From assembly GCA_004402895.1 (NCBI GenBank), contig SORT01000004.1, positions 1 to 64,000 of the forward strand: a stretch of DNA of 64,000 nt, written 5' to 3'. This DNA is from Fidelibacterota bacterium MT.SAG.3. Its GTDB lineage: Bacteria; Fidelibacterota; SORT01. The notes beneath the pieces were generated by a model, which searched no databases, was not told the DNA's origin, and saw only the letters and a program-made list of their open reading frames with translations. Below are positions 54,946 to 55,616 of this stretch, piece by piece (position 1 is the first letter of the stretch; the number at the start of each line of letters is the position of its first letter). Made by a program: the position numbers and the translations under genes.

Positions 54946-55224
54946 AATTCCTTGTAGTCATATCAATTGTAGTTACATTTCTGTATTCTACCCTTAAAAC
55001 AAATTACTCAATTGTCAAAGAACACTCTCATGGCCCCTACTTTCAATATTTGAGGCATCAATAAGTATACCACTATTTCAACTTTCTGTCAAGAATTATT
55101 TTACGGATTGCGACAGAAAAATCAACTTTCTCGGCGATTTTAAAAATAGAATATCACTAATTCAATTAAGACCCCAATTTGAATAGTTTTTTCTTGTATA
55201 GTTGATTGGGATCCTCAAAGGAGT

Positions 55225-55300
55225 CCTACATAACCTGCGGAAGAACCTACAACCACCACCGTGCGAAAAGGCGTCGCTCTCCTAATTGAGCTACCGCCTA
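55225..55300 (-). pseudogene. decayed tRNA-Ala-like relic
   Basis: Minus strand GGCGGTAGCTCAATTAGGAGAGCGACGCCTTTTCGCACGGTGGTGGTTGTAGGTTC aligns with the intact tRNA-Ala but lacks a proper T-arm/acceptor 3' half. Confidence 0.6.
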
Positions 55301-55329
55301 ATTTAGTTGGGGTAATATTTTAATAAGAG

Positions 55330-55355
55330 AACTGCCCTTTCGAGCAGTTTTTTCT
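55330..55355 (+). terminator. terminator-like hairpin in rRNA spacer
   Basis: aactgc-cctttcga-gcagtt followed by tttttct on plus strand. Confidence 0.4.
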
Positions 55356-55357
55356 CG

Positions 55358-55430
55358 TGGAGCTGATCGGGATCGAACCGACAACCTCCGCCGTGCAAGG
55401 GCGGCGCTCTCCCAGTTGAGCTACAGCCCC
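55358..55430 (-). tRNA. tRNA-Ala (TGC)
   Basis: GGGGCTGTAGCTCAACTGGGAGAGCGCCGCCCTTGCACGGCGGAGGTTGTCGGTTCGATCCCGATCAGCTCCA folds as a cloverleaf. Confidence 0.95.
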
Positions 55431-55452
55431 AATAAATTGGGGAGCATTACCT

Positions 55453-55541
55453 GTGGGGCTAAATGGATTCCCCGCCTGAACAGCTTAGTCGGGCAGGCTC
55501 CAGAGGAATTCCCTCCGGAAGAACCAATGACCCTACGTCAA
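55453..55541 (-). repeat. tRNA-Ile 3'-half relic interrupted by a ~50-bp insert
   Basis: gtggggctaaatggattc at 55453-55470 duplicates 55542-55559; gaaccaatgacc at 55521 resembles tRNA-Ile gaaccattgacc; insert 55471-55520. Confidence 0.7.
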
Positions 55542-55542
55542 G

Positions 55543-55616
<74 letters not shown>

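Follow-up and report, generated by a model that had tools for sequence, protein, structure and literature searches.

Interrupted spare tRNA tails in a Neomarinimicrobiota rRNA operon probably belong with GIY-YIG units that lie behind tRNA genes

Certain mobile ORFs of fungal mitochondria sit in the 3' part of a gene, supply a replacement 3' end for it and displace the native 3' end downstream as a second copy, as in Allomyces atp6 and in Glomus atp6, atp9, cox2 and nad3 (PMC3630166). The endonuclease of these elements is of the LAGLIDADG type or, in atp9, of the GIY-YIG type (PMC3630166). In phages, the GIY-YIG homing endonuclease SegB, often located beside tRNA genes, drives the amplification of a tRNA segment (PMC13096335). 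These two systems are the closest precedents for the arrangement that we describe here.

In a Neomarinimicrobiota bacterium, the ribosomal RNA operon contains broken second copies of two tRNA genes. Here, we propose that both belong, as ORF-less members that are either non-autonomous or decayed, to a class of intronless GIY-YIG units of the homing type that target tRNA genes; we consider this assignment likely. Like the fungal elements, these units (tRNA-tail units) combine an endonuclease ORF with a duplicate of the gene's 3' end that lies farther downstream; unlike them, they are bacterial, lie at tRNA genes, have a spare T-arm that contains a palindrome, encode a single-domain GIY-YIG protein, and occur in tandem arrays and as ORF-less versions. 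With SegB and other free-standing GIY-YIG homing endonucleases of phages (PMC13096335; PMC1564403) they share a free-standing GIY-YIG nuclease adjoining tRNA genes, but they are found in cellular genomes of the FCB group as a regular unit with a duplicated tRNA tail and a palindrome, and homing is here our inference. The association of short, dispersed palindromes with a small gene of nuclease type also recalls the tagged REP/BIME sequences and their RAYT transposases (PMC3733652). In contrast to REP/BIME, however, the core TTCCGNAGGAACTCCNNNGGAG shows on inspection neither GTAG nor CGTC as a conserved tag, the gene encodes a GIY-YIG protein and not a Y1 transposase, and the position is fixed in tRNA T-arms. 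We know of no link between tRNA genes and the UPF0213 family of single-domain GIY-YIG proteins, whose members (PDB 1ZG2 and 1YWL) are the nearest solved relatives by sequence, at a weak E = 3e-6. A search of open-access full text found no description of tRNA-tail GIY-YIG units or of T-loop palindromes, and NCBIfam holds no specific model for these small GIY-YIG proteins; the units are apparently widespread and undescribed.

The features of the locus, all within the 64 kb of DNA that was analysed (the window), are as follows.

55542..55616, minus strand: intact tRNA-Ile(GAU) (ARAGORN; Rfam tRNA, 78.9 bits)
55453..55541, minus strand: tRNA-Ile tail unit, a 3' partial copy with an interrupted T-loop and an 18-bp identical tail
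55471..55520, minus strand: 50-nt T-loop insert with two palindromes, TTCCGGAGGGAATTCCTCTGGAG (family A) and CCTGCCCGACTAAGCTGTTCAGGCGGG (family B)
55357..55430, minus strand: intact tRNA-Ala(UGC) (ARAGORN; Rfam tRNA, 66.3 bits)
55185..55312, minus strand: tandem copy of the tRNA-Ala region (source 55346-55442; alignment score 77.5 against a shuffle maximum of 27)
55196..55299, minus strand: tRNA-Ala relic with an interrupted T-loop
55214..55242, minus strand: 29-nt T-loop insert TTCCGCAGGTTATGTAGGACTCCTTTGAG (family A variant)

Read on the minus strand, the tRNA-Ile relic consists of GGTTC (55525-55521), the 50-nt insert TTCCGGAGGGAATTCCTCTGGAGCCTGCCCGACTAAGCTGTTCAGGCGGG (55520-55471) and GAATCCATTTAGCCCCAC (55470-55453). 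A preliminary description of this DNA had claimed a T-loop split by a hairpin-forming insert of ~50 bp, flanked by an 18-bp direct repeat of the tRNA 3' end. Each of these observations proved correct: the placement is exact, the insert, when folded, forms two hairpins side by side (-24.3 kcal/mol, z = -3.2), and the repeat GTGGGGCTAAATGGATTC at 55453-55470 is identical to 55542-55559, the tail of the intact tRNA-Ile. The interrupted T-arm and acceptor end of the reported tRNA-Ile relic are thus real, but the relic is the 3' part alone (variable region, T-arm and acceptor tail) and not a whole tRNA. Overlooked at that time was the second relic, of tRNA-Ala (55299-55196), which differs from its intact copy by a single large alignment gap, the 29-nt insert exactly between GGTTC and GATCCC; by itself, this insert folds poorly (z = 0.2). 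Both inserts start alike (GGTTC followed by TTCCG(G/C)AGG), as nowhere else in the window, and the motif GGTTCTTCCG[C/G]AGG has exactly 2 sites in the 64 kb, one per relic, against 0.5 expected even at 2 mismatches. At this locus ARAGORN and Rfam called the intact tRNA-Ile and tRNA-Ala only and neither relic as a tRNA, and Rfam at a permissive threshold found no additional RNA family in the spacer. Weak Rfam matches to plastid ycf2 in the spacer lie antisense to the tRNAs and were set aside.

Among about 18 rRNA spacers from relatives in the phylum, all are plain, with tRNA-Ile and tRNA-Ala (in one case tRNA-Ile alone) and without extra copies. In other Neomarinimicrobiota, and in Bacteroidota, BMS3Abin03 and Calditrichia, the 22-nt core of the insert splits the T-loop of surplus tRNA copies, and these interrupted copies typically sit directly downstream of an intact tRNA. 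In a genome of the same family but another genus (G003), the second copy of an ARAGORN-called tRNA-SeC has a 57-nt insert at the same T-loop site, containing both palindromes of the window's Ile insert, and a pattern scan revealed more T-loop inserts in G001, G003, G049 and G051. A simple drift of the spacer had been expected to go with a unique insert and a spacer identical across the clade; related inserts occur at the same tRNA site elsewhere and the relatives' spacers are plain, so neither is the case. The suggestion of a miniature mobile repeat that targets T-loops fares well in that related inserts recur at one T-loop position across several tRNAs and several genomes, and needs amending in that the palindrome is one part of a larger unit and the genes hit are surplus copies beside an intact tRNA.

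Scanning 84,980 named genomes yielded ten stretches, from Candidatus Neomarinimicrobiota, Bacteroidetes, bacterium BMS3Abin03, a Calditrichia bacterium and one Eubacterium record (with no tRNA at the site), and on these taxa we assign the motif to the FCB group, and the window, from the names of its relatives, to Neomarinimicrobiota. Matches to the short pattern GTTCTTCCGNAGG outside the named families lay mostly in apparent coding sequence and were discarded. Viral contigs gave 52 matches for GTTCTTCCGNAGGAACTCC, none with tRNA context in its flanks, which we judged coincidental, as we did GTTCTTCCGAAGGAACTCC, which in viral contigs L132-L183 falls within one conserved, apparently coding sequence common to most of them. 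Two further observations concern tRNA-like sequence. In the genome of the window, G000:C36:8516-8533 (L126) reads CTGGGTTC, TCCCGAAGGAACTCCCTTGGAG and GATTCTCAGAC in succession and resembles a family A insert within a degenerate T-arm of tRNA-SeC, and at four sites in G001 and G003 (L088, L089, L091 and L093) a T-loop insert lies in repeated tRNA-like sequence beginning CTTTTAAGCCATTGGCC, near which ARAGORN calls no intact tRNA.

Three loci (L192, L189 and L186) have an ORF of 80-82 aa between the intact tRNA and the interrupted tail, matching GIY-YIG (Pfam PF01541) above the cut-off. A complete unit is laid out as an intact tRNA, a small GIY-YIG ORF on the same strand, and a second copy of the tRNA 3' end, often with the terminator; a palindrome interrupts or replaces the T-arm of this second copy. 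A protein search of 61 Neomarinimicrobiota genomes, in which small GIY-YIG genes are common, found many relatives, which often stood in tandem. An intact tRNA on the same strand ends less than 200 nt upstream of 38 of the 78 distinct matches (the three seed loci included), and about half of the matches have no tRNA close upstream; after the ORF, 24 of the 38 tRNA-adjacent matches have a second copy of the tRNA tail that scores above all 100 shuffles. For the 58 loci, seeds excluded, whose flanks each reached at least 250 nt, a tRNA within 200 nt upstream was on the same strand in 28 and on the opposite strand in 0, and downstream tRNAs were fewer (5 on the same strand, 1 on the opposite); the tRNAs near these loci are of 13 anticodon kinds.

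The GIY-YIG start codon often lies 2-50 nt past the tRNA end, and at L219 and L245 the repeat spans from inside the tRNA through the terminator, with the start codon at or just after the end of the repeat. The proteins are single-domain, about 80-100 aa long, and show no obvious DNA-recognition domain. Their catalytic residues are conserved (among 72 proteins: Y in 70, the second Y in 72, G in 71, R in 71, H in 71 and E in 70); in L189, whose ORF served as a search query, G replaces the catalytic Glu. Units measure about 80-700 bp, and complete units of about 320-370 bp hold the GIY-YIG ORF only. The window contains no GIY-YIG remnant that we could find, and the sole GIY-YIG match in its own genome (G000:C28:1294-1494, L217), which begins 3 nt downstream of tRNA-Ser(gct), is interrupted by an in-frame TAA and lacks a tail copy that outscores shuffles; it is a pseudogene in a decayed unit. 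Hence the link from the relics to GIY-YIG genes is one of architecture only: each relic appears to belong to the class by its place behind an intact tRNA, its tail copy and its palindrome at the same T-loop bond.

Occupied and empty sites can be compared at tRNA-Asp. The flanks of the G028 tRNA-Asp unit, which has a GIY-YIG ORF and two identical tRNA-tail copies, were joined as a predicted empty site and searched for in 19 genomes of the same family. In G087, a member of the same genus as G028, this site was matched contiguously (730/730, 88%), the unit being absent. Also at tRNA-Asp, G048 has a unit with the same class of palindrome but no ORF, G040 and G052 have short, decayed units, and G006, of another genus, has a GIY-YIG unit. 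Tandem arrays contain units with and without an ORF, and the two kinds may be interleaved in one array (L242; in G018, four GIY-YIG units and ORF-less ones that share the same tail). Thus ORF-less units like those in the window are expected relatives of the complete ones.

A tree of 32 GIY-YIG proteins was built on 84 columns, and many of its forks are weak. On it, the tRNA label required 15 changes against a shuffled mean of 21.1, with 0 of 200 shuffles as low; the host label required 21, a figure not directly comparable because it has more classes. The Asn, Ser and Asp/Gly groups each unite different host families. Clustering by tRNA fits target-specific elements, and may partly reflect vertical descent at orthologous tRNAs.

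What fills the spare T-arm varies. Units with family A or B have the palindrome between C56 and R57 of the T-loop, tRNA-Asp and tRNA-Gly units have the T-arm partly or wholly replaced by TCCCGA...TCGGGA (family C), and a tRNA-Met unit has a fourth palindrome, so that in different units the same position is filled by four different palindrome families. When folded, 26 of 31 inserts (with boundaries chosen by hand) beat their shuffles by more than 1 standard deviation, the mean z being -2.9. Outside tRNAs, family A has another 4-35 sites per genome, where controls gave no match, family C is likewise dispersed, and family-B-like sites recur in genomes of the family; hence the palindromes are repeats of a wider kind.

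In light of this architecture, how might such units arise? They are probably selfish elements with tRNA genes as their landing site, and our results best support a mechanism of intronless homing in which the gene end is displaced, the cutting and the homing being what we infer. As an intronless homing endonuclease, the nuclease would cut tRNA loci that carry no unit, at the T-arm or close to it, and repair from an occupied locus would install the nuclease together with its tRNA tail. The new tail would keep the tRNA functional and the spare tail would be displaced downstream, where a palindrome in its T-arm may destroy the cut site, protecting the second copy, and may block the production of a mis-made tRNA from the tail. 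Since the intact tRNA retains its T-loop, self-protection would need a recognition site extending beyond the tRNA into the sequence now occupied by the ORF. Tandem gain and loss between tail repeats could then yield arrays and ORF-less units. In a variant that we find improbable, the GIY-YIG nucleases would recognise DNA hairpins that resemble a T-arm, move units as tandem cassettes behind tRNA genes, and spread the palindrome families A-D dispersed in FCB genomes, much as RAYTs do with REPs, constituting a new bacterial mobile system.

Homing behind tRNA genes has to be weighed against several other accounts. Dispersed palindromes of the REP or MITE kind might insert by chance between GTTC and GAAT of T-loops and survive only in redundant, decaying tRNA duplicates, with the GIY-YIG genes as unrelated neighbours. 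We take this to be possible but rather doubtful: family A is indeed found outside tRNAs, for example inside CCCCTCTAATAAGAGGGGTG-GATTT repeats, family C is dispersed too, and ORF-less units such as those in the window require no nuclease. At many loci, however, the intact tRNA, a GIY-YIG ORF and the interrupted tail follow directly on one another, the polarity towards a same-strand upstream tRNA is strong (28 against 0), four palindrome families occupy one position, and the tRNA-Asp and tRNA-Gly units have part of the T-arm replaced rather than interrupted. That the units instead make a functional RNA, the T-arm with its built-up hairpin acting at the 3' end to stabilise or terminate the tRNA-GIY-YIG transcript, or to prevent processing of the tail as a tRNA, we consider quite unlikely. 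The short distance from tRNA end to start codon, the good folding of the inserts and the inclusion of the tRNA terminator in the repeats would suit such a role, but the hairpin has no U run after it and ORF-less tandem copies leave nothing to stabilise.

The tRNA T-loop and 3' end serve as attB for many integrases. Together with the 18-bp direct repeat of the tRNA tail, this makes a footprint left by a tyrosine-integrase element (a prophage or genomic island) after its deletion conceivable, and the preliminary description had offered an att site as one reading. No integrase gene was found in the complete units, whose associated enzyme is a GIY-YIG nuclease, which largely refutes this account; one palindrome at the break in many tRNAs is not to be expected of att sites, the units measure about 80-700 bp, and we rate this account as very improbable. 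Ordinary spacer drift or an assembly artefact draws on the state of the genome assembly, which is fragmented and 69% complete, but is scarcely credible given the same architecture in independent assemblies, including the single-contig G018, and plain spacers in relatives.

If the units are tRNA-targeting homing elements, small GIY-YIG genes would gain a role, and intronless homing with displaced gene ends would be extended from fungal mitochondria and phages to bacterial chromosomes. In addition, tRNA pseudo-tails and some dispersed palindromes would be explained. Why the spare T-arm is so often converted to a palindrome is a testable puzzle.

Three observations bear on where such palindromes are found. 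At several loci (L106, L113, L119, L125, L128 and L131), a family A palindrome of 20-22 bp is nested in a dispersed repeat, between CCCCTCTAATAAGAGGGGTG and GATTT...GACGGGGTGTGT, apparently without target duplication. The tRNA-Asn unit of G024 has an intact T-loop and carries its palindrome in the anticodon arm instead. At G018:C1:456104-456596, TCCCGACACACATGTCGGGA is repeated, partly at 85-bp spacing, near a tRNA-like match; this is probably another tail array, with the palindrome perhaps in the anticodon arm.
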